64,000 nt of DNA from the NCBI GenBank assembly GCA_902776455.1, contig CACYQI010000007.1:17768-81767 (forward strand), given 5' to 3'. Below, piece by piece: positions 4,123 through 45,625 of this stretch. A program made the translations under genes and the position numbers. The notes under the pieces are model-generated. The model was not told the DNA's origin and ran no database searches. It saw nothing but the letters and a program-made list of their open reading frames with translations. Position 1 is the first letter of the stretch, and every line of letters begins with the position of its first letter. The DNA comes from an uncultured Bacteroidales bacterium. Its GTDB lineage: Bacteria > Bacteroidota > Bacteroidia > Bacteroidales > Bacteroidaceae.

Positions 4123-4210
4123 GGAGAGATGCTCGAGTGGCTGAAGAGGCACGCCTGGAAAGCGTGTGACCGGCAAAACTGGTTCGCGAGTTCGAATCTC
4201 GCTCTCTCCG
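4123..4210 (+). tRNA. tRNA-Ser(GGA)
   Basis: Acceptor arms GGAGAGA (4123-4129) and TCTCTCC (4203-4209) pair fully, with G4210 as discriminator. The anticodon stem CACGC/GCGTG encloses a loop with anticodon GGA at 4157-4159. A long variable arm (class II) and a T-arm with GTTCGAATC follow. The 3' CCA is not encoded. The length of 88 nt and the long variable arm are as expected for tRNA-Ser. Confidence 0.95.
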
Positions 4211-4256
4211 CAAAACACTAAACAATTAAAATCATAAACTCTAAACAAACAACACA

Positions 4257-6770: not shown

Positions 6771-6838
6771 ATTACCAGCACAATAAAGGACGCATTCCTA
6801 ACAGTACGTTTTAACACGTTACTGAGTATCATCCTACG

Positions 6839-6980
6839 CTCCACGGAGCATCGGCTTACACTCCACGTAGCATCGGCTTATGCTCCACGGAGCATCGGCT
6901 TACCCTCCACGGAGCATCGGCTTACGCTCCACGGAGCATCGGCTTACACTCCACGGAGCATCGGGCTACGCTCTACGGAA
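6839..6980. repeat. 22-bp tandem array, six and a half units
   Basis: Six consecutive 22-base units begin at 6839, 6861, 6883, 6905, 6927 and 6949, with a partial seventh at 6971. The core is CTCCACGGAGCATCGG followed by CTTAC plus one variable base. Units differ at one to three positions. Degenerate copies of the same core occur at about 34778-34825 and 45450-45530. There are no spacers, so this is not a CRISPR. Confidence 0.9.
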
Positions 6981-7275: not shown

Positions 7276-7313
7276 ATAGAAGAAAATTAATTTTTTCATC
7301 AGGCATTAATATT

Positions 7314-7511
7314 CGGCAAACTATCCACGGACAATAGGCAAACTATCCACAGACATTTGGCAAACTATCCACGGACAATCGGCAAACTATCCACAGACAT
7401 TCGGCAAACTATCCACGGACATTTGGCAAACTATCCACAGACATTCGGCAAACTATCCATGGACATTTGGCAAACTATCCACGGACATTCGGCAAACTAT
7501 CCACGGACATT
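7314..7511. repeat. 22-bp tandem array, nine units, each with a DnaA-box-like 9-mer
   Basis: Nine 22-base units start at 7314 and repeat every 22 bases to 7511. Each holds GGCAAACTATCCAC followed by AGACA or GGACA. Units at 7336, 7380 and 7424 contain CTATCCACA, one base from the DnaA box TTATCCACA; the others have CTATCCACG. An AT-rich stretch (7277-7313) precedes the array. Confidence 0.85.
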
Positions 7512-7648
7512 CGGATTGAGGGCTGTTTTATCCTTTTGCACTCCTTTATGGTGCGGCTCAAAGTCGATACTAATAATGAAAAAAACTTAAAAGCAGTTTA
7601 TTTTTCAAAAATAAGTGACGTATTATTGCTCACATCATTATTTATTCG

Positions 7649-7779: not shown

Positions 7780-8892
7780 ATGAACCTCTTTCGCGACTTA
7801 AAGCAAAAGTACACCGCTGACACCCTCTCGGCTCGCGAGGCTCAGCGACAGGCTGAGTTCATTGCCTGGGGGCCTATCGTCTTCCAAGCTTCGCGCCTGA
7901 TGCTCAAGTTCGGCATCCTCGACCTTCTGCGCGACAGCGACAACGGGCTTACGGTAACTGAGGTTGCCGAGAAGGTCGGACTCTCGGAGTATGCCGTCAA
8001 GTGTCTGCTCGAGGCGTCGCTCAGCATCGGCACGGTGCTCATCAACACAGAAACCGACCGCTACTCCATCTCCAAGACGGGATGGTTCCTCTTGAACGAT
8101 GCCGCAACGAAGGCGAACATTGACTTCGTACACGATGTCAACTACGTGGGTCTGTTCCGCCTCGAGGAAGCCATCAAGGAGGGAAAGCCTGCCGGACTGA
8201 AACACTTCGGCGACTGGCCGACCATCTACGAGGGGTTGTCCTCTCTGCCCCCTGATGTGCAAAGGAGTTGGTTCGCCTTCGACCACTTCTACAGCGATTC
8301 CTCTTTCCCCGAGGCCTTGCAGATAGTCTTCGGCGAACACTTTGTCCGCACGCTCTACGACGTGGGAGGCAACACGGGCCGATGGGCACTCCGATGTGTC
8401 AGCTACGACGAGAAGGCTGAAGTAACCATTCTCGACCTTCCCGGTCAAATCAAGATGATGCAGGAGAACATCTCGGGAAAGCCCGGAGCAGAGCGCATCA
8501 AAGGCTACCCTATCGACTTGCTCGACAGGTCGGCCGCCTTCCCTCAGCACAAAGGCGAACTCGATGCCATCTGGATGTCGCAGTTCCTCGACTGCTTCAG
8601 CGAAGAGGAGATTGTCAGCATTCTCTCCAGGGCAAGGGAGGTGATGACGGACGGCACGCGCCTCTTCATCATGGAAACCTTCTGGGACCGCCAGCGCTTC
8701 GAGCCTGCTGCCTTCTGCCTGACCATGACCAGCCTCTACTTCACGGCATTGGCCAACGGCAACAGCAAGATGTATCATTCCGACGACATGCGACGTCTCG
8801 TCCGTGAGGCGGGACTGGAGATAGAGAGCATACACGACGGACTAGGACAAGGGCACAGCATCATGGTGTGCAAAAGGGCCGAAAAACTCTAA
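7780..8892 (+). CDS. SAM-dependent class I methyltransferase (O-methyltransferase type) of the polyene-like cassette
   Basis: A 370-residue methyltransferase built like plant/bacterial small-molecule O-methyltransferases: an N-terminal winged-helix dimerisation domain (about residues 35-110, FGILDLLRDSDNGLTVTEVA) and a Rossmann domain with the SAM-binding loop DVGGNTG at 194-200 and the acidic strand end DLPGQ at 219-223. The substrate is unknown; methyltransferases of this kind sit in Bacteroidetes aryl-polyene/flexirubin loci, where they methylate the aryl head. It is the first gene of a five-gene same-strand run, and its last codons overlap or abut the following acyltransferase. Confidence 0.85.
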   Translation: MNLFRDLKQKYTADTLSAREAQRQAEFIAWGPIVFQASRLMLKFGILDLLRDSDNGLTVTEVAEKVGLSEYAVKCLLEASLSIGTVLINTETDRYSISKTGWFLLNDAATKANIDFVHDVNYVGLFRLEEAIKEGKPAGLKHFGDWPTIYEGLSSLPPDVQRSWFAFDHFYSDSSFPEALQIVFGEHFVRTLYDVGGNTGRWALRCVSYDEKAEVTILDLPGQIKMMQENISGKPGAERIKGYPIDLLDRSAAFPQHKGELDAIWMSQFLDCFSEEEIVSILSRAREVMTDGTRLFIMETFWDRQRFEPAAFCLTMTSLYFTALANGNSKMYHSDDMRRLVREAGLEIESIHDGLGQGHSIMVCKRAEKL

Positions 8893-9915: not shown

Positions 9916-11598
9916 ATGATAAGCGTACTGTCCACCAACATCACCTCGCCTCTGGGCCTCACCACAGAGCAGAACTATCAGGCTGTCTTTTCGGGGAGCA
10001 CAGCCTTGAGGCGCTATGAGGGTATGTGGGGACTGCCAGAGCCGTTTGCCGCCTCGCTGTTCAGCGACGAGCAGAAGGCAGCACTCGCATTGGATGGATA
10101 TACGTTCTTCGAAGCACTTGCCATACGTTCCGTTCGCGAAGCCCTCTCGCATCTGCGGCTCGATGTCACGTCCGAGAGAGTTGTCTTCATACTGAGCACC
10201 ACGAAAGGCAACGTGGAAGAGATAAACACCCCTCGCTACTATCCGTCGGAATCGGCAAGCATCATCGCAAGAAACATCGGGCTGACCACAACGCCCATCG
10301 TGGTTTGCAACGCCTGCGTCTCGGGCCTTTCAGCACAACTCCTTGCCGACCATCTGCTTACGGCCAACCTCTACGACTACGCCATCGTGGTAGGAGCAGA
10401 GGTGCAAAGCAAGTTCATTGTGGCTGGTTTCCAGTCCCTTAAGGCCATATCGGAAGAGCCTTGCCGCCCATTCGACATGGAACGTAACGGCCTCAATCCA
10501 GGCGAAGCGGCTGCCACGATTGTCTTCGGCAAGCCTTCTCCAAGGCTCGGTGACGTTAGAGAGGGTCTCTATTGGAACCTCGTGGACGGAGCAGCTTGCA
10601 ACGACGCCTGCCATCTCGTCTCGCCATCGCCGCAAGGCGTGGGTCTGACCGCTGCCATCGAGACTGCGATGAAAGGTCGCGACAAGAAGCAACTCGCTAC
10701 GATTTGCGCTCACGGAACAGCCACGCTCTACAACGATCAAATGGAGTCGAAAGCCATTGAGAAGGCCCATCTGTCGGACATCCCCCTGTCTGCGCTCAAA
10801 GGCTACTACGGGCATACGATGGGGGCGGCAGGCGTGCTCGAAACCATCCTGTCCATGCGAGCCACAGACGACGGCATCGTGCTTGCCACAAAGGGTTTTA
10901 TGGAACCGGGTGTCAGCGGAAAAGTCAGCATCAATGGCGAGCCGCGACCCATCGATAAGACCGCCTTCTTGAAGGTTATGTCGGGTTTTGGCGGCTGCAA
11001 CGTAACGGCACTCTATGAAAGAGGGGCAGGAAGCATGGAGCAAGGGGCAGGAAGCATGGAGCAAGGAGCCAGAGGAAAAGTGAAGCTCGAAAAGGTGCAG
11101 ACCGTCAGATTCTCTTCTGCGGAAGGGACTTCTCCCTCCGACATCTACAAGCAGGAAATAGGGAACTATCCTAAGTTCTACAAGATGGACATCCTTTCGC
11201 GACTGGCTTTCGTGGCAGCAGAAAAGGTCCTCTCCAACTCTCCCCTGAAGGACGAAGACAAGAAGCCTGCCCTCATCCTCTTCAACCACTCGTCCTCGAT
11301 AGAAAGCGACCGCCGTTTCCTCGACACAATCAGCCGTGCCGAAGACTTCTTCCCCAGCCCTTCCGCCTTCGTTTACACCTTGCCCAACATCGCAGCTGGC
11401 GAGATAGCCATCCGACATCAGCTTCTCGGCGAGACCTCCTTCTACATCCTTCCCGAGAAAGACGAAACGTTGATGCAGCAGATACTCGAAGCCACTCTGG
11501 GCGGCACGGAAGCCCGAAGCGTCGTCAGCGGCTGGGTAGATGCCGAAAGCAACACAAGCTACGAGTGCGAACTGACAATATATTCTGTTAAAGTATAA
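9916..11598 (+). CDS. Beta-ketoacyl-ACP synthase with a C-terminal KS-like extension
   Basis: Residues 1-365 form a thiolase-fold ketosynthase with the full Cys-His-His set: C134 in VVCNACVSG, H266 in CAHGTATLYND and H300 in YYGHTMGAAG. Residues about 390-560 form a second domain (FNHSSSIESDRRFLD...SPSAFVYTLPNIAAGEIAIRH) of the type found in Bacteroidetes aryl-polyene KS proteins, which lacks a recognisable active-site Cys. Between the domains two perfect 21-base direct repeats (11022-11042 and 11043-11063) encode RGAGSMEQ-type heptads. Expected role: chain extension of an acyl chain on the ACP encoded next. Confidence 0.85.
   Translation: MISVLSTNITSPLGLTTEQNYQAVFSGSTALRRYEGMWGLPEPFAASLFSDEQKAALALDGYTFFEALAIRSVREALSHLRLDVTSERVVFILSTTKGNVEEINTPRYYPSESASIIARNIGLTTTPIVVCNACVSGLSAQLLADHLLTANLYDYAIVVGAEVQSKFIVAGFQSLKAISEEPCRPFDMERNGLNPGEAAATIVFGKPSPRLGDVREGLYWNLVDGAACNDACHLVSPSPQGVGLTAAIETAMKGRDKKQLATICAHGTATLYNDQMESKAIEKAHLSDIPLSALKGYYGHTMGAAGVLETILSMRATDDGIVLATKGFMEPGVSGKVSINGEPRPIDKTAFLKVMSGFGGCNVTALYERGAGSMEQGAGSMEQGARGKVKLEKVQTVRFSSAEGTSPSDIYKQEIGNYPKFYKMDILSRLAFVAAEKVLSNSPLKDEDKKPALILFNHSSSIESDRRFLDTISRAEDFFPSPSAFVYTLPNIAAGEIAIRHQLLGETSFYILPEKDETLMQQILEATLGGTEARSVVSGWVDAESNTSYECELTIYSVKV
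11022..11063 (+). repeat. In-frame 21-bp direct repeat inside the ketosynthase
   Basis: Two identical 21-base units, plus a degenerate third start, lie exactly at the joint of the two domains. Since 21 is divisible by three, gain or loss of a unit would keep the frame. Confidence 0.9.
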
Positions 11599-11669: not shown

Positions 11670-11930
11670 ATGGAACAACTTATTAACGACTTGAAACAAC
11701 AGATTAAGGAAGTCCTCAACCTGGAGGAGCTTTCTCTTGAAGACTTCGATGCTGATGCGCCTCTCTTTGCCGATGAAGGCATCGGCCTCGACTCCATCGA
11801 TGTGCTCGAAATCATCGTGCTCTTGGAGAAACAGTATGGCATTCGTCTCGCCAACCCGAAAGAAGGCAAAGCCATCTTCAAGAGCGTGCGTACAATAGCC
11901 GAATACGTGCAGGCAAACAGGAAGAAGTAA
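11670..11930 (+). CDS. Acyl carrier protein
   Basis: An 86-residue carrier protein with the phosphopantetheine attachment site GLDSIDVLEI (Ser 42) and the usual acidic four-helix pattern. The C-terminus (ANRKK) is more basic than in fatty-acid AcpP, which suits a dedicated secondary-pathway ACP. It lies between the two ketosynthase genes and should carry the growing chain for both. Confidence 0.92.
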   Translation: MEQLINDLKQQIKEVLNLEELSLEDFDADAPLFADEGIGLDSIDVLEIIVLLEKQYGIRLANPKEGKAIFKSVRTIAEYVQANRKK

Positions 11931-11944
11931 AGAGTTAAGAGTTG

Positions 11945-12040
11945 AAAAGCCCCCCTCTGACTCCCTCTTAAAGGGGAGGACTCCCTCCCTTTAAGGGAGG
12001 ATTGAGGAGAGTCTGAGAGTTGAAGTTGAAAGTTGAGAGT
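11945..12040. repeat. GC-rich palindromic repeat plus 'agttgaaag' runs
   Basis: Between the ACP and the second ketosynthase lie CTCCCTCTTAAAGGGGAGGA- and CTCCCTCCCTTTAAGGGAGG-type hairpins (about 11958-12002), flanked by AGTTGAAAG/GAGAGT runs. The same family recurs at 13313-13432, 14125-14185, 16270-16330, 18264-18385, 34478-34570, 35108-35195, 44155-44370, 46262-46310, 49600-49630 and 53535-53655. Confidence 0.8.
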
Positions 12041-12052
12041 GAACCAAATAAA

Positions 12053-13969
12053 ATGGCAAACGTAATAGTAGCAGGTTACGGCATTATCTGCGCCATTGGC
12101 AACGATGCCTCGGCTGTCCTGAAGTCCCTCAAAGAAGGGCAAACAGGGATTGGCCCAATGCGTTATCTCCAGTCGAGCCACAAGGAGTTGCCCGTTGGCG
12201 AAGTGAAACTCTCCAACGAAGAGATGAAGCAGATGCTTGGCTTGGACAAAGAAGCCATCATCAGCCGAACCGCTTTGATGGGAGCCATTGCTATCCGCCA
12301 AGCCTTAGAGCATGCCCAGCTGACACTAAAAGGCAAGCGCGTTGTCGTCATTTCCGGCACGACCGTAGGCGGAATGGATATGACGGAGCGTTACTTCAAA
12401 GGTCCTTCTGCAGAGCTGGAAGAAGCTCTCAGGAAGCACGACTGCGGCAGCTCCACGCGGCAGATGGCCAACCTTGCCGGACTTGTAGATGCCGAGGTGT
12501 GTACCGTCTCCACAGCCTGCTCGTCTGCCGTCAACGCCATCATCCTCGGCTCGGAAATGCTGAAAAGGGGCGAAGCAGACATCGTCATAGCAGGCGGCAC
12601 GGAAGCCCTGAGCATGTTCCACCTCAACGGGTTCAACTCGCTGATGATTCTCGACAAAGCCCAATGCCGACCATTCGACAAGACGCGTACTGGCCTGAAC
12701 TTGGGCGAAGGAGCTGCTTTCCTTGTGCTTACACACACTTTAGTGAAGAGTAAAGAGTTAAGAGTGAAGAATAATAGTAACAACTTAGAGCGCAAAAGTA
12801 GTTCTAATCCTTCACTCTTCACTCTTCACTCTTCTGTTTACATCCGCGGCTATGCCAACCGTTGCGATGCCTTCCACCAGACTGCTTCATCCGAAAACGG
12901 CGAGGGAGCCTTCCTTGCCATGACCGATGCCTTGAAGATGGCTGGGCTGAGACCTGAAGACATCAGCTACATCAATGCCCACGGCACGGGTACTCCCAAC
13001 AACGATGCCAGCGAAAGCGAAGCCATCCGACGAGTCTTCGCCGACAACATCCCGCCCGTCTCCAGCACGAAAGGCTTCACAGGCCACACCACCTCGGCTT
13101 CCGGCGCAATAGAAACCGTCATATGTATCCTTGCTCTTCAAAACAACTTCCTGCCTGCAAACCTCGGCTGGAAGGAACAAGACGAAGCGTGCATCACTCC
13201 CCTTGGAAATGAAGAATTAAGAATGAAGAATGAAGAATTTGCTACCGCGCGTAACATTCTTTGCAATTCCTTCGGATTTGGAGGGAACGATTCGGCAGTT
13301 GTGATAGGTAAAAGCTCCCTCCCCGACTTTTCGAGCAAGGAGCAGCCTCTCCTAAAACGCAGGGGGCAGGAAGCCTTTTCCCCTTCCCTAAACTTAAAGT
13401 CCTTCCCTTCAGGGGAGGATTTAGGAGAGGCTACCACCTGCGTCTTGGGAGAAGCCGTAATAGATGATGTTGAGCAACTAGGTGAGCTTCGCGAGTTTGT
13501 CACAGCAGGCGAAGCCCGACGGATGGGCAAGCTGATGAAGGCAGCCACCATCACCTCCATGAGAGCGTTGCGGCAGGCAGGCGTGGAACGCCCCGATGCC
13601 ATCATCACAGCCACCGCCTACGGAATGCTCGAGACGAGCGAACGCTTCCTCACAGACATGGTGGAGAACGGCGAAGAGATGCTCAGCCCTACCCTCTTCA
13701 TGCAGAGCACACACAACACCATCGGCTCAGCCCTCGCCATACGGCTCAAGTGCCACGGCTACAACATCACTTATTCGCAAGGCGCAGACTCGTTCCGTTG
13801 GGCACTTCGCGACGCCAAGCGCCTAATAGAAACGGGCAAGGCAAAGACTGTCCTTGTGGGTCAGCACGACGAAGCAACGCCTATGATGCAGCACTTCTGC
13901 CGCCTAATGGGTTGTCCCGTCCCGCCGATGCTCTACTCCCGCAGCATCGTGCTGAGCCGCAAGACCTGA
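12053..13969 (+). CDS. Beta-ketoacyl-ACP synthase fused to a C-terminal KS N-terminal-like domain through repeat-derived linkers
   Basis: The 638-residue product begins with a complete ketosynthase: C156 (STACSS), H310 (INAHGTGTPNND) and H345 (GFTGHTTSASG), ending at the usual KS terminus GFGGNDSAVVIGK (residue 420). From about 461 a second domain follows (GEARRMGKLMKAATITSMRAL ... STHNTIGSALAIRLKC) that in related loci is a separate KS-like protein without an active-site Cys, possibly a chain-length partner. Three stretches (residues about 231-261, 385-397 and 421-460) read as low-complexity sequence and match, base for base in character, the local intergenic repeats. The start is the ATG at 12053 (MANVIVAGYG). 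Confidence 0.85.
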   Translation: MANVIVAGYGIICAIGNDASAVLKSLKEGQTGIGPMRYLQSSHKELPVGEVKLSNEEMKQMLGLDKEAIISRTALMGAIAIRQALEHAQLTLKGKRVVVISGTTVGGMDMTERYFKGPSAELEEALRKHDCGSSTRQMANLAGLVDAEVCTVSTACSSAVNAIILGSEMLKRGEADIVIAGGTEALSMFHLNGFNSLMILDKAQCRPFDKTRTGLNLGEGAAFLVLTHTLVKSKELRVKNNSNNLERKSSSNPSLFTLHSSVYIRGYANRCDAFHQTASSENGEGAFLAMTDALKMAGLRPEDISYINAHGTGTPNNDASESEAIRRVFADNIPPVSSTKGFTGHTTSASGAIETVICILALQNNFLPANLGWKEQDEACITPLGNEELRMKNEEFATARNILCNSFGFGGNDSAVVIGKSSLPDFSSKEQPLLKRRGQEAFSPSLNLKSFPSGEDLGEATTCVLGEAVIDDVEQLGELREFVTAGEARRMGKLMKAATITSMRALRQAGVERPDAIITATAYGMLETSERFLTDMVENGEEMLSPTLFMQSTHNTIGSALAIRLKCHGYNITYSQGADSFRWALRDAKRLIETGKAKTVLVGQHDEATPMMQHFCRLMGCPVPPMLYSRSIVLSRKT

Positions 13970-14195: not shown

Positions 14196-15329
14196 TTAAA
14201 GGAACTTCACCTTCGAGGCGTCGCGAGGCTTGGCGTCAGGGGCTTCGTCGGGATAACCAATGGCTATGACGTAGAGCAACTTATAGCCCTCGGGGATGTC
14301 GAGACGGTCGAGGAAGAACTTCGCCTTCTCGTTTGAGAGCAGGAAGCGGACGGGACCTGTCTGTATGCATGTGCCGAGACCTATCGACTCGGCTGCCAAC
14401 ATCATGTTCTGGCCCAAGAGACCAGCATCGAGGTCGAAGCCTCCGTCCTTCGGAGCGCAGACGCAGATGAGGTTGGGAGCACCCCGGAACATGTTTTTGA
14501 AGTTCTTGTCTTGCTGCACCATATCGGGGTTCGCCTGCTTATAGACCTCGCTCACGTCGCTGAGGAGCTTCTGGTCTTCTATCACTCTGACGGCCCAATA
14601 CTGCCAGTTTCTCGCGCTCGGAGCGTTGATGCCGGCGCGGACAATCACTTCCAGCTTCTCGCGCTCAACGGGGCGGTCGAGGTACTTACGGACGGAGCGT
14701 CGGGCCATGATGTTGCTGAGCACGGGATTCAGTTCCATGCGAATATCCGCCTCTATGTCAGAGATTTTGTCCATAGGCTCATAGCGCTTCACCACTCTTC
14801 CGTCGCGGCTGACCAGGAACTTCGTGAAGTTCCATTTGATGTCGGCATTCTTGTCGTAGTCAGCATTCTGCTTGCGGAGCATATCGTCGAGCAGTTTGCC
14901 CATCTTGTCGCCAAGGTCGAAGCCTCCGAACCCCTTCTTAGCCTTCAGGTAAGCATAGAGAGGATGAGTGCCTTCGCCGTTCACCTCGATCTTGTCGAAC
15001 TGCGGAAAGCGGATGTTATAGTTGGCTGTGCAGAACTCACGAATCTCCTTGATGGTGCCCGGAGCCTGCTGTCCGAACTGATTGCAAGGGAAGTCGAGGA
15101 TGACGAGGCCTTCGCCGGAAAGCTTGTCGTAGAGCTGTTCCAGTTCTTTGTATTGAGGCGTAAAGCCGCATCGTGTTGCCGTGTTGACGATGAGCAACAC
15201 CTTGCCCTTGTACTCAGCGAGCGAGACGTCCTGCCCGCCTTCGTTCTTCACCTTGAAATCGTAGATGCTCTGTGCCGATACCGCCAGCACGGCTGTCAAT
15301 GCCAATAGGCAGATAAAGAGTCTTTTCAT
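14196..15329 (-). CDS. Exported glutathione peroxidase-nitroreductase fusion protein
   Basis: Residues 1-19 are a clear signal peptide (cleavage near VSA-QS), so the enzyme acts in the periplasm. Residues 22-195 are a complete thiol-type glutathione peroxidase: C54 in NTATRCGFT, C82 in FPCNQFG, Q88, and the W166-N167 pair in KWNFTKFL. Residues about 205-377 are a nitroreductase-fold flavoprotein (ARRSVRKYLDRPV, INAPSARNWQYW, and a final AIGYPDE). Each domain alone has normal length, and the joint is continuous with no repeat sequence. A likely reading is a peroxide-reducing enzyme joined to an FMN-dependent reductase; whether electrons pass between them is not known. Promoter-like TACCTTTG lies upstream at 15386-15379. 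Confidence 0.88.
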   Translation of the reverse strand: MKRLFICLLALTAVLAVSAQSIYDFKVKNEGGQDVSLAEYKGKVLLIVNTATRCGFTPQYKELEQLYDKLSGEGLVILDFPCNQFGQQAPGTIKEIREFCTANYNIRFPQFDKIEVNGEGTHPLYAYLKAKKGFGGFDLGDKMGKLLDDMLRKQNADYDKNADIKWNFTKFLVSRDGRVVKRYEPMDKISDIEADIRMELNPVLSNIMARRSVRKYLDRPVEREKLEVIVRAGINAPSARNWQYWAVRVIEDQKLLSDVSEVYKQANPDMVQQDKNFKNMFRGAPNLICVCAPKDGGFDLDAGLLGQNMMLAAESIGLGTCIQTGPVRFLLSNEKAKFFLDRLDIPEGYKLLYVIAIGYPDEAPDAKPRDASKVKFL

Positions 15330-18425: not shown

Positions 18426-19637
18426 ATGAAGAGAAACTGGACTAACTTGCTTCTGCGGCCGGAAAACGGATTGTACATGGCTCTTTGGGGGCTGGTCTTT
18501 GCTGCTATTCCGCTGAGTCTGTACTTGCGGACATTCAGCGACCCGTTCTTTGATTTCCAATGGAATGATGTGTTCTTCGAATGGCAGCGCTTCGTCGTCT
18601 TTTTCATCCTTTTTCTCGTCCACAACTTCCTGCTGCTTCCCCTTCTGGTGCCGGGGCATAAGCGTCTGGCTTACTTCTGCTCCGTCGTCGTGGTGGCAGC
18701 GGCTTTCACCATCTACCATTGCAGCAACAAACCCAAAGGTCCACGTGGCCGGCGCAGACCGCCCATAGAGCAACAGCACTTCAGGCACAGGGAGTTGGCT
18801 CACCATCGTCCCGGTCCATCCGATTCGTGTACAGCCCTCGCCAAGCCGTCGGCCGAAGGGAGAGACTTCGTCCATCAGCCGAAGGAGAGATGGAGAGCTG
18901 GCCATAGGGAAAAGGCCTTCGAGAAAGGCGGACCACCCTTCTTCGACGAGCGCGACATCCTAGTTGTCGGCATCCTGATACTCATGTTCGGAGCCAACCT
19001 CGGCATCAAGGTCTATTTCCGTAGCCACGAGGACCGCAAACGCCTCTCCGAGCTTGAAAAGCAGAATCTGGAGCACCAGCTGGAGTACCTCCGCTACCAG
19101 ATAAACCCGCATTTCTTCATGAACACGCTCAACAACATACATGCCCTCGTTGACATCGACCCGCAGAAGGCAAAGACTTCCATCGTAGAACTCTCGAAGA
19201 TGATGCGCTACGTGCTCTATGATGGCAACAAGCAGAGCGTCGCTCTCTCGCAGGAACTCGACTTCATCCGGCACTACGTCTTCCTCATGCAACTGCGCTA
19301 TACCGACCATGTCAGAATCGAACTCGACCTTCCGCAAGGGCTGCCCGAACGCCACATACCGCCCCTCATACTCATCACCTTCGTCGAAAACGCCTTCAAG
19401 CACAGCATCAGCTACCAGAAGGAGTCGTTTGTCCACGTGAAAGTAGCCATCGGGAAAGGCGAACTGCACTTCACCTGCCACAACTCGAAGGCAGAGAATC
19501 CCAATCAGGAAAAAGGCGGAGTAGGACTCACTAACGTGCAGGGACGGCTCGACCTGCTCTATGGCCGCCACTACACGCTGCACATCGACGAAACCTCTGA
19601 AACATATACTGCTACACTTAAAATCCCCTTGTCATGA
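18426..19637 (+). CDS. LytS/YehU-type sensor histidine kinase
   Basis: A membrane kinase of the His_kinase (PF06580) class: three N-terminal helices (about residues 17-36, 55-77, 81-98), a fourth at 178-197, a coiled linker, the phospho-acceptor His 229 in YQINPHFFMNTLNN, and an ATPase domain with the N-box FVENAFKHS and a GVGLTNVQGRL glycine motif. Residues about 100-172 are an unusual Arg/His/Pro-rich, low-complexity loop with no family counterpart that I know, placed between helices 3 and 4; its DNA resembles the local intergenic repeats. The next gene, its response regulator, overlaps by four bases (ATGA). Confidence 0.88.
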   Translation: MKRNWTNLLLRPENGLYMALWGLVFAAIPLSLYLRTFSDPFFDFQWNDVFFEWQRFVVFFILFLVHNFLLLPLLVPGHKRLAYFCSVVVVAAAFTIYHCSNKPKGPRGRRRPPIEQQHFRHRELAHHRPGPSDSCTALAKPSAEGRDFVHQPKERWRAGHREKAFEKGGPPFFDERDILVVGILILMFGANLGIKVYFRSHEDRKRLSELEKQNLEHQLEYLRYQINPHFFMNTLNNIHALVDIDPQKAKTSIVELSKMMRYVLYDGNKQSVALSQELDFIRHYVFLMQLRYTDHVRIELDLPQGLPERHIPPLILITFVENAFKHSISYQKESFVHVKVAIGKGELHFTCHNSKAENPNQEKGGVGLTNVQGRLDLLYGRHYTLHIDETSETYTATLKIPLS

Positions 19638-21803: not shown

Positions 21804-22892
21804 ATGAAGAAAATCGACCGCTACATCATCGGTAAGTTCCTCGGCACTTACTTCTTCTCCATCGTGCTTATCATAAGCATCGGTGTGGTGTTCGATTTCA
21901 ATGAGAACATCGACCGCTTCACCGAGTCGAATGCGCCGTGGCGAGCCATCGTCTTTCAGTACTACCTCAACTTCATCCCCTACTACGCCAACCTCTTCAG
22001 CGCCCTGTTCGTCTTCATCAGCGTCATCTTCTTCACCTCGAAGATGGCAGACGGCAGCGAAATCATTGCCATGATAAGTGCCGGCATCAGCTACCGACGG
22101 CTCCTGCTGCCATACATGATAAGCTCTGCCATCATTGCCTCCCTTACCTTCTATCTCGGGTCGGAGGTCATTCCGCGAAGCAGCGTGAAACGTCTCGCCT
22201 TCGAGAACACCTACAAGAAACGCAACAAGAACCCGACATATGCCGAGAAAGTACAGTTGCAGGTAGAGCCGGGTGTCATTGCCTACATGGAGCACTTCGA
22301 CGGAGTCAGCAAGACCGGCGTACACTTCTCGCTCGACATGTTCGAGAACAAGAAGCTCGTCTCGCACCTATCAGCAGGCACAGCCCAATACGACACGCTG
22401 AGCGACGTCCGCTACCAATGGCACTTGAGGGATGTCACGGTGCGCGAACTTCGCGGCATGAGGGAGAAAATCACGCATTACGACCTCGTCGATTCCATCA
22501 TTCGCATCGAGCCGCAAGACTTCCTCTTCATCCGCAACCAGCAGGAAACGATGACGAATGCCGCGCTGAAAGAGTACATAGAGAAGCAACGCAACCGCGG
22601 AAGCGGCAACCTGAGCATCTTCGAGGTGGAGTACTACAAGCGCTATGCATCGCCCTTCGCCGCCTTCATTCTCTCCTCCATCGGCATGTCGCTGTCCTCC
22701 CGCAAACGCAAAGGCGGAATGGGCTTCTCGTTGGGAATAGGTATTGCCCTGAGTGCCACCTACATCCTGCTGCAAGGCATCTCGGCAACCTTCTCTACAA
22801 ACGCAGGAATGCATCCTGCCCTCGCTGCCTGGATGCCCAACATCCTATATACATTAATCGCGATATATCTCTATCGCAAGGCACCGAGGTAA
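21804..22892 (+). CDS. LptF/LptG-family (YjgP/YjgQ) permease
   Basis: Inner-membrane subunit of the LPS transport ABC complex. The architecture is typical: helices near residues 10-30, 55-78 and 95-120, a periplasmic beta-jellyroll middle domain (residues about 130-265), and three C-terminal helices (FAAFILSSIGMSL, GFSLGIGIALSATYILLQ, NILYTLIAIYLY). The start has the family pattern KKIDRYIIGKFLGTYFFSI. At 362 residues it is normal. It follows tgt on the same strand, an arrangement common in Bacteroidales. LptF versus LptG cannot be told apart here. Confidence 0.88.
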   Translation: MKKIDRYIIGKFLGTYFFSIVLIISIGVVFDFNENIDRFTESNAPWRAIVFQYYLNFIPYYANLFSALFVFISVIFFTSKMADGSEIIAMISAGISYRRLLLPYMISSAIIASLTFYLGSEVIPRSSVKRLAFENTYKKRNKNPTYAEKVQLQVEPGVIAYMEHFDGVSKTGVHFSLDMFENKKLVSHLSAGTAQYDTLSDVRYQWHLRDVTVRELRGMREKITHYDLVDSIIRIEPQDFLFIRNQQETMTNAALKEYIEKQRNRGSGNLSIFEVEYYKRYASPFAAFILSSIGMSLSSRKRKGGMGFSLGIGIALSATYILLQGISATFSTNAGMHPALAAWMPNILYTLIAIYLYRKAPR

Positions 22893-23066
22893 ATGAAGAA
22901 TGAAGAATGAAGTATTTGCTACCGCGATTAGTAAATTAAGAATGAAGAATGAAGAATGAAGAATTTGCTACCGCGCTCAATAAATGAAGAATTAAATCCT
23001 TAAATCATAAAATCCTTAAATCATAAAATCCTTAAATCTTTAAATCCTTAAATCTTTAAATTGTAA
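22893..23066. repeat. AT-rich low-complexity tandem repeats (gaagaatgaag and aaatccttaaatc)
   Basis: Two families lie side by side: GAAGAATGAAG units with TTTGCTACCGCG ends (22893-22985) and AAATCCTTAAATC units (22985-23066). The first family reappears inside the ketosynthase gene (13205-13250) and at 35260-35340 and 54190-54220. Confidence 0.8.
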
Positions 23067-28758: not shown

Positions 28759-31700
28759 ATGAAAAGAAAGGACTTTTTGATTGCTCTCTTGCTGGCCATC
28801 TTCGGTATGCAGACAGCCTTGGCAGAGTACCATTATGTTGATTTGGGTTTGCCCAGCGGTACATTGTGGGCAACGGTAAACGTCGGAGCCAACTTACCCA
28901 CCGACCCCGGCGACTACTTCGCTTGGGGAGAAACCAGTCCGAAGAGCGACTACAGCTCGAGTACCTACAAGTGGTGTGAAGGCTCTGAAAACGCCTTAAC
29001 TAAGTATTGCGACAATAGTTCTTATGGCTACAACGGCTTTACAGACAATTGTATGGAGCTTTTGTCCCAGGACGATGCCGCAACCATGAACTGGGGCTTA
29101 GACTGGCGGATACCAACTAAGGAGCAGTGGGAAGAACTGTTAAATACAGAGTACACCACACAAGAATGGTATTCGTTGGGTGGACTCGGTGTTAATATCT
29201 ATGGGTGTGAAATTAAAAGCAAACTGAATGGGAATTCCATTTTTTTGCCTGCAGGAGGAGAATATAAAGGTTCAAGGTTGGAAGCTTCTGAAGCATGCGG
29301 TTCTTATATGTCGCGTAATCTCAAGCCCTCCTATTCCTATGATACATATATTATTTTTTTCTATTCTGATGAAAATCATGTTAAGATTAGGGTGGTTTCT
29401 GATGCTAGTCGATTTTATGGATACAACATTCGTCCGGTTCACATGCCTGAGCGCGATTATGTTGACCTGGGTTTGCCCAGCGGTACACTTTGGGCAACAA
29501 CAAACATCGGTGCCACGAACCCCGCCGACGATGGCTCTTTCTTCGCTTGGGGTGAGACGCAGTCGAAGAGTAGTTTCTCATACGGTACCTACAAGTGGAG
29601 CAAAGGCTCAACCAATACTCTCACGAAGTATTGCACTGACAGCCAATATGGATATAGTGGCTTTACCGACGGTCTGTCAAAGCTATTGCCGGAGGACGAT
29701 GCCGCGGCAGCAAACTGGGGCGATGGATGGAAGATGCCAAGCATGGAACAGTGGATGGAATTGACCGACGACAGATACACCACGCAGTTCTGGACGCAAA
29801 AGCCCACTACGTCTGGTTCTCAGAATTATGGATATCAGATTACGAGCAAGACGAACGGTAACAGCGTCTTCATCCCTGCTGCGGGTCATTTTATCGGCTC
29901 TATACATGTCAAGAACGATTCCGAAACATGGAATTATTGGACGCCCAGCCTCAGCGAGGATAACTCAGATGCTGCAAAGTTCTTCCAAGATAATCTCAAT
30001 ACTAAAGGTGTTTTCGATAACGACAAGACAACGGCGCGTTTCTTAGGATTGCCTGTCCGCCCAGTTCTCAGAAGCCCAGTTGTCTATACCGAGTTTGTCG
30101 AAGCAACTGGCAAACTGACCTACTACTACGATAATATGATGGATTACCGCTCGGGCATCACGGAACTCTACGACCCCGTCGGCACCCCGAATGCAGTACG
30201 CTTCAAGGGCTACAACGACAAGATTCTCAAAGCCGTCATCGACCCCTCGATGATGGATGCTCCGCTCACTTCGATGAGTAACATGTTCTACGGCAATTAT
30301 GATGAAGAGACAAAAGAGAATCTGTACTTGAAAAACATGACCGGCATCGAAGGATTGAGGAATCTCAATACGTCAATCGTGACAAATATGTTTGAGATGT
30401 TCGATGGATGCTCCTCGCTGAAGGCGCTCTACCTCAGCTCGTTCAACACGCAGAACGTGACAACAATGTATGGCATGTTCAGTAGATGCTCTTCGCTGCA
30501 GTCGCTCGACCTCAGCTCGTTCAATACTGAGAACGTATATCACATGAGCTATATGTTCTCCAACTGTTCTTCCCTGCAGGTGCTCGACATCTCTTCGTTC
30601 AACATACATACAGCGATAAACATTCATGACATGTTCGAGGGTTGCACATCCCTGAGAACCATTTATTGCAACGACGACTGGAGCGGCACAACGGCTAACT
30701 CCGAATACATGTTCTTTAACTGCATTTCCCTCGTTGGCGGACGGGGAACAAAATACGACCGCAACGTCGAAGACGCCACCTACGCCCGTCCCGATGGAGG
30801 ACAGAGTGCCCCGGGCTACTTCACAGTGAAGGGAGAGGTCTATACCGAGTTCGTTGCAAGCACAGGGACGCTGACTTATTACTACGACCTCAAGCGCAAA
30901 TCCCGCTCGGGCATTACGGAGCTTTACGACCCAGTCGGCAACCCCGATGCGCTCCGCTTCAATGATTACCACGACAAGGTGCTCAAAGCTGTCATCGACC
31001 CCTCGATGAAGAATGCTCCTTTGACTTCGATGAAAGGTATGTTCTTTGGTGGAATCAATGTTAGTGTCATTAATTGTTTGTCTGCAATGACCAGCATCAG
31101 AGGACTGGAGAACCTCAACACGACAGGCGTGACGAATATGGAATCCATGTTCAGGGAATGCTCTTCGCTGACAATGCTCGACCTCAGCTCGTTCAACACG
31201 CAGAACGTGACAAACATGTATGCTATGTTCAGCAGTTGCTCTTCGCTGAAGTCAATCGACGTCCGTTCGTTCAACACGCAGAACGTGACAAACATGGATA
31301 TGATGTTCTACAATTGCAGTTCCGTACAGATTCTCGTCACCCGCTCGTGGAACACGCAGAACGTGACGAATATGTACGGTATGTTCTCCGGATGCTCGTC
31401 GTTGCTTTCGGTTGACCTCGGTTCGTTCAATACAGAGAACGTGACGAATATGCAGAAAATGTTCTCCGGATGCTCATCGCTGCCTTCAATCAACCTCAGC
31501 TCGTTCAATACGCAGAACGTGACGGATATGAGTTTGATGTTCCGGGGATGCTCTTCGTTGACGAGGCTTGACCTCAGCAAGTTCAATACCCGCAGCGTGT
31601 CCGACATGTCTTTGATGTTCATGGAGTGTTCTTCGCTTACTTCGCTCGACCTCAGCATGTTCAATACAAGAAATTTGAAGAAAGCGCTATCCATGTTCTA

Positions 31701-34446: not shown

Positions 34447-34971
34447 TCATACAGAGACTGTTTAAGGGGCAGGGGGCAAGGAAAGCCTCTCCCCAACCCT
34501 CTCCTGAAGGAGAGGGGGAAGTCCTTCCCTTTAGGGGAGGATTTAGGAGAGGCTTGCCTTGCCCCCTTGACTCCTTAGAGTTATTTTTATATTTCGGATG
34601 TACCGTTTCCTATGTACCTCGTAGGCAATGTCACCCAGTTCCGACGGGTTTCAAGACCGCCCAAACAGCGTAATCCTTTCGCAGAAGGCAAAGGCTTCGT
34701 GCCCGAAAAACCACGACACATTTTTCCTCCTCTCTATAGGGAAATCCCCTACCCTGCACGCTGTCCTTTTCGACACTCCACGTTGTGTAAGCCGATGCTC
34801 CACGTTGTATCGCCTTTCCCTCCACGTTAACTTTCCCCTCTCAACTCTCAATTTTCAACTTAAATCTTTGTTCTGTATGTCGGCATGTCATGTCGACCTG
34901 ACACTTTCTTAACTTTCCTCGACAAAACGCCCCTTTCTAACCTACTAATTCCCAGCGACAATTCAAAATAA
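34447..34971. other. Non-coding interval with repeats, part 1
   Basis: A long CTCTCC/GGAGAG palindrome cluster (34478-34570), degenerate 22-bp array units (34778-34825) and a GTCGGCATG/CATGTCGACC hairpin near 34880. Short open frames here have no plausible codon use. Confidence 0.65.
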
Positions 34972-45184: not shown

Positions 45185-45625
45185 TCCTGCCCCATTTTGT
45201 CAGAACTTTTCGCAAACGAATCGCATCCTGACGGCCATAGGAAACACAGACGGGGTGCTCTCCGCTTGTGTTTTGTTGTCTCATCGAGACTAATGATAAG
45301 CCCCCATGAGCTGCTTTTCGTCAGGAGGACCGAAAAATAGGCGCATAAGTAAAGGTGTTCTGGATTTCCCCCGGACACCAATAATATGAGATAAGAAACA
45401 GCTTGATAAGTGACAACGACGCCCTGTCCCAAGGGCTATGCAGAACACAACGTGGAGCGTGGGCCGATACTGCGTGCTGTGTGAGCCGATGCAACGTGGA
45501 GCGTGAGCCGATGCTACGTGGAGTGTTTTAACGTGTAAAGTTGACTAACTAAACGTGTAGTGTTGACTGACTTAACGTGTAAAGTTGGATGATGCCGGAA
45601 GGAAAGTGTACCTGCGCCCACACAG
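45185..45625. other. Non-coding interval with repeat fragments, part 1
   Basis: Partial nested-palindrome element (45225-45390: ACACAGACGGGGTGCTC, GAGACTAATGATAAGCCC, GAGCTGCTTTTCGTCAGGAG) and degenerate 22-bp array units with the AACGTGGAGCGTGAGCCGAT core (45450-45530). No gene is supported. Confidence 0.65.

Follow-up and report, generated by a model that had tools for sequence, protein, structure and literature searches.

Gene content of the ketosynthase locus

The window, by which we mean the whole 64-kb stretch of DNA analyzed, carries a ketosynthase (KS) fused to a Ketoacyl-synt_2 domain resembling a chain-length factor (CLF). The gene and its neighborhood comprise the following features:

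7780–8892, + strand: FlxJ-family methyltransferase of a flexirubin-type cluster (NF053543, 601.6 bits, cut-off 560)
9916–11598, + strand: upstream KS-like gene; two of its loops hold stretches that derive from repeats and differ from species to species (Pfam, alignment)
11022–11072, + strand: heptamer insert of the GGAGCAAGG type (GAGSMEQGAGSMEQGAR) inside the upstream KS-like gene (TRF, heptamer arrays, alignment of 20 relatives)
11670–11930, + strand: acyl carrier protein (ACP), flanked by both KS genes (PF00550; PRK09184 above cut-off)
12053–13969, + strand: KS-CLF fusion, 638 aa (Pfam PF00109/PF02801 and PF13723; AF2; Foldseek)

The AF2 model of KS-CLF had a pLDDT of 87.3 and a pTM of 0.90, and its Foldseek matches included FabF enzymes, the ishigamide KS/CLF (6kxd) and the PfaC KS-CLF (6riw), the last in a match spanning 802 alignment columns. 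Against NCBIfam PRK09185 the KS scored 299 bits, under the cut-off of 407. Residues C156, H310, K340 and H345, which we take to be the catalytic residues of the KS, were invariant in 55 sequences, in agreement with the original prediction that the catalytic residues are intact. The features sought as marks of a flexirubin or aryl-polyene KS-CLF were found (an intact Cys-His-His, a CLF partner, an ACP and a cluster methyltransferase), and by gene content the locus is a predicted flexirubin/aryl-polyene-type cluster. Elsewhere in the window we observed a tRNA-Ser (GGA) at 4123–4211 (+), a single 377-aa ORF with glutathione peroxidase and nitroreductase domains at 14196–15329 (−), and tandem repeats of 78 nt at 30378–31664, the 26-aa units of which seem to us reminiscent of BspA-type leucine-rich repeats.

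Three blocks within KS-CLF derive from DNA repeats

The original prediction placed three blocks within the ketosynthase that match repeats found between genes. All three are present and in frame, two in loops of the KS and one in the linker between KS and CLF. The blocks, with related repeats in the window, are:

12742–12834, + strand: block 1, an H1 palindromic element, peptide VKSKELRVKNNSNNLERKSSSNPSLFTLHSS (palindrome arms, H1 consensus peptide, AF2)
13208–13248, + strand: block 2, an AATGAAG heptamer arm plus TTTGCTACCGCG, peptide NEELRMKNEEFATA (29 genome copies, control 0)
13333–13432, + strand: block 3, a GAGCAAGGAGC heptamer piece plus the inverted-repeat-bounded element AGCCTCTCCTAAA...TTTAGGAGAGGCT, in the KS-CLF linker (repeat matches, AF2)
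11955–12014, + strand: intergenic hairpin repeat of the block 3 family, directly upstream of the KS-CLF gene (hairpin at 11967–11995; 85% identity to 13400–13432)
22892–22992, + strand: intergenic tandem copies of the block 2 repeat (TRF period 49; C7:40676, C7:40725)
34484–34554, no single strand: another facing pair of block 3 end sequences (34484–34499 on the − strand with three mismatches, 34539–34554 on the + strand with none)

H1, a name coined in this analysis, is a palindrome of about 95 bp with arms made of heptamer repeats, and block 1 is one diverged copy of it that does not pass the 3-mismatch H1 pattern. Its arms (12745–12772 and 12807–12834) are 28 nt long and 89% complementary. 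Its peptide agrees with the H1 consensus at 24 of 31 residues and with ten H1 copies at 17–22 of 31, and in each of these comparisons it scored above all 500 shuffles. Block 2 is a run of AATGAAG heptamers with TTTGCTACCGCG at its end. The repeat-like portion of block 3 is 13333–13432, within a predicted 13313–13432; it is flanked by inverted repeats, and its last 33 nt (13400–13432) are 85% identical to intergenic 11982–12014.

Cover by repeats was scored against 12-mers occurring at least five times in a 462-kb genome sample from which the KS-CLF gene was excluded. Repeat 12-mers covered 38/93, 28/42 and 59/120 nt of blocks 1, 2 and 3, against means of 0.7, 1.2 and 1.3 nt, and maxima of 28, 20 and 26 nt, in 3000 synonymous recodings of each peptide. 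Genome-wide, GAAGAATTTGCTACCGCG gave 29 matches with one mismatch allowed (control 0) and AGTGAAGAGTKAAGAGT gave 166 (control 2; overlapping matches within arrays are counted), whilst GGATTTAGGAGAGGCT, with three mismatches allowed, was found seven times in the 64-kb window against 0.63 expected. The three blocks therefore derive from DNA repeats and not from chance low complexity. Compared with 300 synonymous recodings, hairpin z-scores of blocks 1, 2 and 3 were −4.0, +2.4 and −2.8, so block 2 alone among the three is not a hairpin.

In the AF2 model pLDDT was below 50 at residues 246–257 (block 1) and 428–456 (block 3), and 71–79 in block 2. The peptide frame of block 2 recurs in two further coding loci (L207 and L217), and only 3 of 24 copies of its repeat lay in coding sequence (24 of the 29 loci were listed). 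At gathering score the sole Rfam match in the window was a tRNA, with no known RNA family at the repeats, and comparison with plasmid records gave no match reaching 60% identity.

The KS-CLF fusion is older than its repeat

Block 3 had also been proposed to have removed a stop codon and so fused KS to CLF, a proposal that did not survive comparison with relatives. Across 137 loci with KS homologs, KS and CLF shared one frame in 81 and had separate frames in 48, and no CLF was found in 8. Every locus with at least 57% KS identity was already fused (29/29, a count that includes the window's own locus and four named duplicates of genomes already counted). In a quick 128-row tree, given a midpoint root merely so that it could be drawn, the window's gene fell inside an all-fused clade of 46 rows with SH-aLRT support of 97. 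Between the end of KS and the start of CLF lie 43–50 aa in 21 of 22 close orthologs and 72 aa in the window, with a range from 43 to 91 among deeper orthologs; some fused relatives have linkers without any repeat. On the strength of the 29 fused close loci and the all-fused clade we reject block 3 as the cause of the fusion. As the fusion is older and widespread among relatives, block 3 lengthened an old linker, and the KS-CLF fusion appears to be decorated by repeats, not caused by them.

Different repeats occupy the same KS loops in orthologs

We compared 22 close KS orthologs (62–100% identity), in which the window's genome is G000, with 28 deeper ones, after removal of seven whose ORFs did not exceed 540 aa. 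Site 1 holds an AGTGAAG palindrome in G000, G079 and G137 (MAG RUG14526), a trimmed version of it in G013, a C-rich hairpin in G027, a GGGCAAG palindrome joined to a C-rich hairpin in G119 and G020, and a short GGAGCAAGGGGCCCCTTGCCCC form in G065. Site 2 holds AATGAAG in G000 and G027 and AATTCAA-type or C-rich repeats elsewhere. In some close orthologs, G035 for example, at least one of the sites has a native look. The original prediction had counted relatives with the same linker against itself; such relatives were found for block 1, where G079 and G137 share the element, and other relatives have different repeats there.

The site 1 loop was exactly 17 aa long in 11 of the 22 close orthologs, with sequences of several unrelated types, and 18 aa long in 27 of the 28 deeper ones. 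Repeat 12-mers covered 24%, 15% and 4.2% of sites 1, 2 and 3 in the close set and 0%, 0% and 0.5% in the deeper set, in a search biased against the deeper orthologs because the repeat library was built from G000 alone. Site 2 was located in 21/22 close and 26/28 deeper orthologs and site 3 in 22/22 and 25/28. A repeat cover of 14 nt was reached at site 1 in 10/22, at site 2 in 9/22 and at site 3 in 3/22 close orthologs.

On the KS tree G013 and G065 fall within the group of G000, G079 and G137, so that H1 would have come first and then been trimmed (G013, which keeps the left arm only) or overwritten (G065). By this order of events, we infer, the site 1 loops of both went back to native length after H1 was trimmed or overwritten. 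Alignment of the upstream KS-like gene with 20 relatives likewise showed differing repeats at two loops.

H1 is dispersed in genes of the window's genome

The H1 family was reached from the right arm of the orthologs of block 1. A genome-wide count gave 34 copies of the H1 arm (control 0), and at 15 of 30 loci examined there is coding sequence on both sides. These 15 copies lie in 14 genes, as L281 and L282 are two copies within one gene. Fourteen of the 15 are read on the + strand of the element in one shared codon phase, as are two borderline copies; the remaining copy, L279, is read on the opposite strand. The H1 consensus has a single open frame out of six, reading VKSEELRVKN..NSDSSLFTLHSS. 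This open-frame bias is partly one of ascertainment, because the ORF caller cannot see copies that break a gene.

Nineteen of the 30 loci retain both arms and, sorted by eye, 14 of these are coding, 2 borderline and 3 non-coding; copies with the right arm only were coding in 1/11 cases, against 14/19 for two-armed copies (p = 0.0017, also sorted by eye). Because 14/19 is near the 82% coding share of the 462-kb sample, two-armed H1 shows no strong avoidance of genes, although the numbers are small. A perfect AGTGAAG array must give a TGA every 21 nt. The codon at this position in the 15 listed in-frame copies is TTA, CGA, CTA or CAA; some sense codon is to be expected there because open frames were chosen, and the use of four different ones suggests more than one escape. 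The right arms of 16 coding copies showed 22 nonsynonymous and 16 synonymous changes (possible 82:31), which hints only weakly that the H1 peptide is under constraint.

Carriers of H1 identified by Pfam include an HMGL/LeuA-like protein, IspH (LytB), a 7TM-HD protein, an acyl-CoA dehydrogenase, UvrA, PrmC, B12-dependent methionine synthase (MetH), an aspartokinase-homoserine dehydrogenase, two class I tRNA synthetases (one of the Glu/Gln type, one of the Ile/Leu/Met/Val type) and a DUF4922 glycosyltransferase, the gene for which holds two copies. Two of the 13 H1 genes scanned (L287 and L297) had no Pfam match; L279 lay outside the scan. At five loci not classed as coding (L295, L296, L303, L307 and L308) the H1 right arm is joined to a different left half (...GTAACTTTGATTTTTCACTC...) with C-rich hairpins nearby, and there repeat halves appear to have recombined in a modular way.

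A REP/RAYT (Y1) transposase was considered as the mover and rejected, as H1 counts across genomes do not track it. The genomes with the strongest Y1 matches (G093, G127, G076 and G162) have no H1, and G000 has only weak and partial Y1_Tnp matches (best 2.3e-5), notwithstanding H1-rich G119 (27 matches), which has a strong one at 1.9e-20. As to the features of a MITE, inverted repeats are present at the elements; alignments of IspH and of alanyl-tRNA synthetase (AlaRS) gave no clean empty-site junction for a target-site duplication.

Other repeat families and the genome-wide load

A further family, G1 (GGGGCAAGAGAATACCAACAG), has 27 copies (control 0) and is open in all six frames. Coding sequence lies on both sides of 15 of the 27, and carriers include BipA/TypA, RsmF and GH127. 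The overall load was scanned in genes of at least 300 nt in the 462-kb sample (13.6% of the genome), and a 12-mer had to occur at least six times to count. Of 276 genes, 56 held 20 nt or more of such repeats, against 2–9 in five synonymous recodings, a score to which repeats internal to a gene may add; a count made without randomization found them at least 30 codons from both ends in 36 of the 276.

Heptamer arrays in genes (n = 35) were open in both orientations in 21 cases, only in the one used in 8, only in the other in 6 and in neither in none. Intergenic arrays (n = 124) were open in both in 12, in one in 74 and in none in 38. Genic and intergenic arrays thus differ (p = 3e-9 for both open, 2e-5 for both closed), a bias that is partly one of ascertainment because arrays with stops end an ORF. 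The 12-mer CTCCACGGAGCA lay outside called genes in 33/33 sample copies and CTTGCTCCTTGC in 9/32. Families of 22-nt repeats were seen at 6835–6979, 7311–7514 and 45450–45523, and a histidine kinase gene (18426–19637, +) has, ahead of the His_kinase domain, a basic low-complexity stretch in which a further repeat may have been captured.

Presence and absence across relatives

Of the genus genomes, which are drafts with genes called by a codon-usage caller made for this analysis, 35 of 139 contain H1, with up to 28 matches per genome. Among 393 genomes drawn from the order G000 alone was positive, leaving none of the other 392, so that H1 is not a repeat common to the order at large. Outside G000, 15 of 29 H1 loci were coding, 11 of them in the same frame, three on the other strand and one in another frame. 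The closest named relatives are Bacteroidales, Prevotellaceae and Bacteroidaceae MAGs, and the host does not belong to the Rickettsiales.

IspH was matched in 59 of 61 genomes, and 30 of the 59 were aligned. At its loop H1 is present in one (G000), short different repeats in G027 and G013, and a short loop in the remaining 27. The IspH of G000, whose loop is 31 residues longer than in relatives, has H1 beside an older GAAAAGGTGAAAGG repeat common to G027, which suggests that repeats land in repeat-derived loops. In AlaRS, 28 of 30 loci were readable (L254 and L255 were left out). Its loop holds a CATTGACC palindrome in three orthologs (G000, G005 and G065), an AGTTGAA palindrome in G014 and a C-rich hairpin in G141; the insert is missing from the 93–94%-identical orthologs of G126, G027 and G008.

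Interpretation and alternative explanations

Taken at the level of sequence, blocks 1–3 are likely copies or remnants of short repetitive elements that moved into genes of one uncultured gut Bacteroidales genus and are predicted to be translated. We envisage that heptamer-armed palindromes and C-rich hairpins move into protein-coding genes, and that an element would be retained if the frame is kept, no stop falls in frame and a surface loop or linker is hit. A retained element would be translated as an excursion of 10–50 aa. Later the loop could shrink, grow or have a different repeat written over it, and in this way related proteins would come to hold different repeats at one loop. As the inserts keep the reading frame, their sequence is predicted to form part of the enzymes, in the mature protein as well, where it would be tolerated rather than functional. 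The most likely account is a selfish, presumably mobile element filtered by selection, with in-frame, stop-free, loop-sited copies staying. It is possible, and we put this forward tentatively, that the genus hosts active, coding-adapted mobile palindromes, mostly of fixed frame, which pass from one gene to the next and keep replacing surface loops and linkers of enzymes, essential ones included, by cycles of insertion, trimming and overwriting.

The repeats might instead be functional nucleic-acid signals, such as mRNA hairpins for pausing or stability or sites of DNA-protein binding, which the cell needs and which loops can accommodate, with the peptide as a by-product. Blocks 1 and 3 do fold better than their synonymous recodings, and both arms are retained at 19 of the 30 H1 loci sorted by eye; however, presence varies among close relatives, non-homologous repeats replace one another at one loop and block 2 is not a hairpin. 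The last point excludes a conserved hairpin as the only explanation. We consider a signaling role unlikely, and it would be compatible with selfish insertion. A different possibility is that the inserts are never translated, being cut from the RNA or bypassed by the ribosome. Hairpin bypassing elements occur in some yeast mitochondria, and the hairpin form and the conserved enzymes that serve as insertion sites would suit such a process, but bypass would need neither a kept frame nor stop avoidance, and the inserts recovered by stop-tolerant protein searches (IspH of G000; AlaRS of G000, G005, G065, G014 and G141) were in frame and stop-free. One-frame use of H1 is weaker evidence here, because open frames were chosen. 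We therefore think bypass very unlikely.

Loss of the KS stop codon to a repeat as the origin of the fusion, as in the original prediction, seems highly improbable: the position of block 3 exactly in the linker, with its family also directly upstream of the gene, would fit, but 81 of 137 loci are fused and some relatives have repeat-free linkers. Misplacement of repeats into genes by assembly or binning would be conceivable in draft metagenome assemblies, where repeats are classic misassembly points, yet separate species share in-frame inserts at the same place (KS of G000, G079 and G137; AlaRS of G000, G005 and G065), and we give an artefact scarcely any credence. Chance convergence on similar codons in disordered linkers has a negligible probability. 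Although the peptides are of low complexity and the AF2 model shows disorder in two of the three loops, none of the 3000 recodings per block matched the real repeat cover, and control patterns yielded 0–2 matches.

If the genus does host such active palindromes, it would offer an ongoing natural experiment on how loops evolve outside the Rickettsiales. A case of this kind would make testable selfish DNA as a source of protein segments, repeated hits on the same loops and the insertion tolerance of folds. It would also be a warning that what is taken for a loop or linker in these genomes may be repeat DNA of recent origin.

Comparison with known systems

The KS + CLF pairing itself is known: ApeC and ApeO form a heterocomplex of an aryl-polyene KS and its chain-length-factor partner (PMC8253772). 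The window's protein shares this pairing with ApeO/ApeC and with the PfaC KS-CLF, and differs in that it is a single chain, has a short domain resembling CLF and contains loops that derive from repeats.

Among repeats of the wider phylum, TAACTGA heptamer direct repeats are described from Beggiatoaceae, Cyanobacteria and five Bacteroidetes, mostly intergenic near start codons (PMC4679880). They are tandem heptamers scattered over the genome as here, whereas the present genus has many heptamer types, in inverted pairs and also inside genes. BrickBuilt of Porphyromonas gingivalis, a Bacteroidales MITE with an internal tandem repeat of a 23-nt unit, is described as always intergenic (PMC4596501); host order and internal tandem repeat are alike, but our elements are also intragenic. 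Fusions of MITE ORFs with genes in frame have been called not unusual (PMC10969869), and intragenic MITEs (BOX, ERIC, QMITE1 and others) form them likewise, although the density here is nearer that of the Rickettsia palindromic elements (RPE), which the same review presents as an unusually frequent case among MITEs (PMC10969869). In the literature searched, which excludes most subscription journals, we found no paper describing in-frame palindromes from Bacteroidales.

RPE are short palindromic repeats that encode peptides in frame in many unrelated genes (PMC10969869, PMC3733652). The likeness is one of behavior, namely palindromic in-frame insertion into unrelated genes; RPE measure about 150 bp against about 95 bp for H1 and live in a host of different phylum and lifestyle, and the elements here have tandem-heptamer arms, with several unrelated families at the same loops. 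The in-frame palindromic regions resembling Wolbachia palindromic elements (WPE) in addA, addB and priA are mostly stop-free (PMC4224334). They too are alike by behavior; WPE hosts are alphaproteobacterial endosymbionts, and the portions of the WPE description cited here do not mention heptamer arms (PMC4224334). A 2024 MITE review considers a similar mechanism of protein evolution conceivable in other prokaryotes (PMC10969869). The present genus would provide an instance from a different phylum, one in which many species can be compared, the elements belong to several families and conserved enzymes host them. What stands out is the frequency, the heptamer-built arms and the turnover of unrelated families at fixed loops. 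With a dispersed palindromic family, in-frame copies in unrelated genes and orthologs without the insert all found, we class these elements, by analogy of behavior, as probable protein-coding palindromes of the Rickettsia/Wolbachia kind which, judged by their host, are not of the RPE or WPE families.
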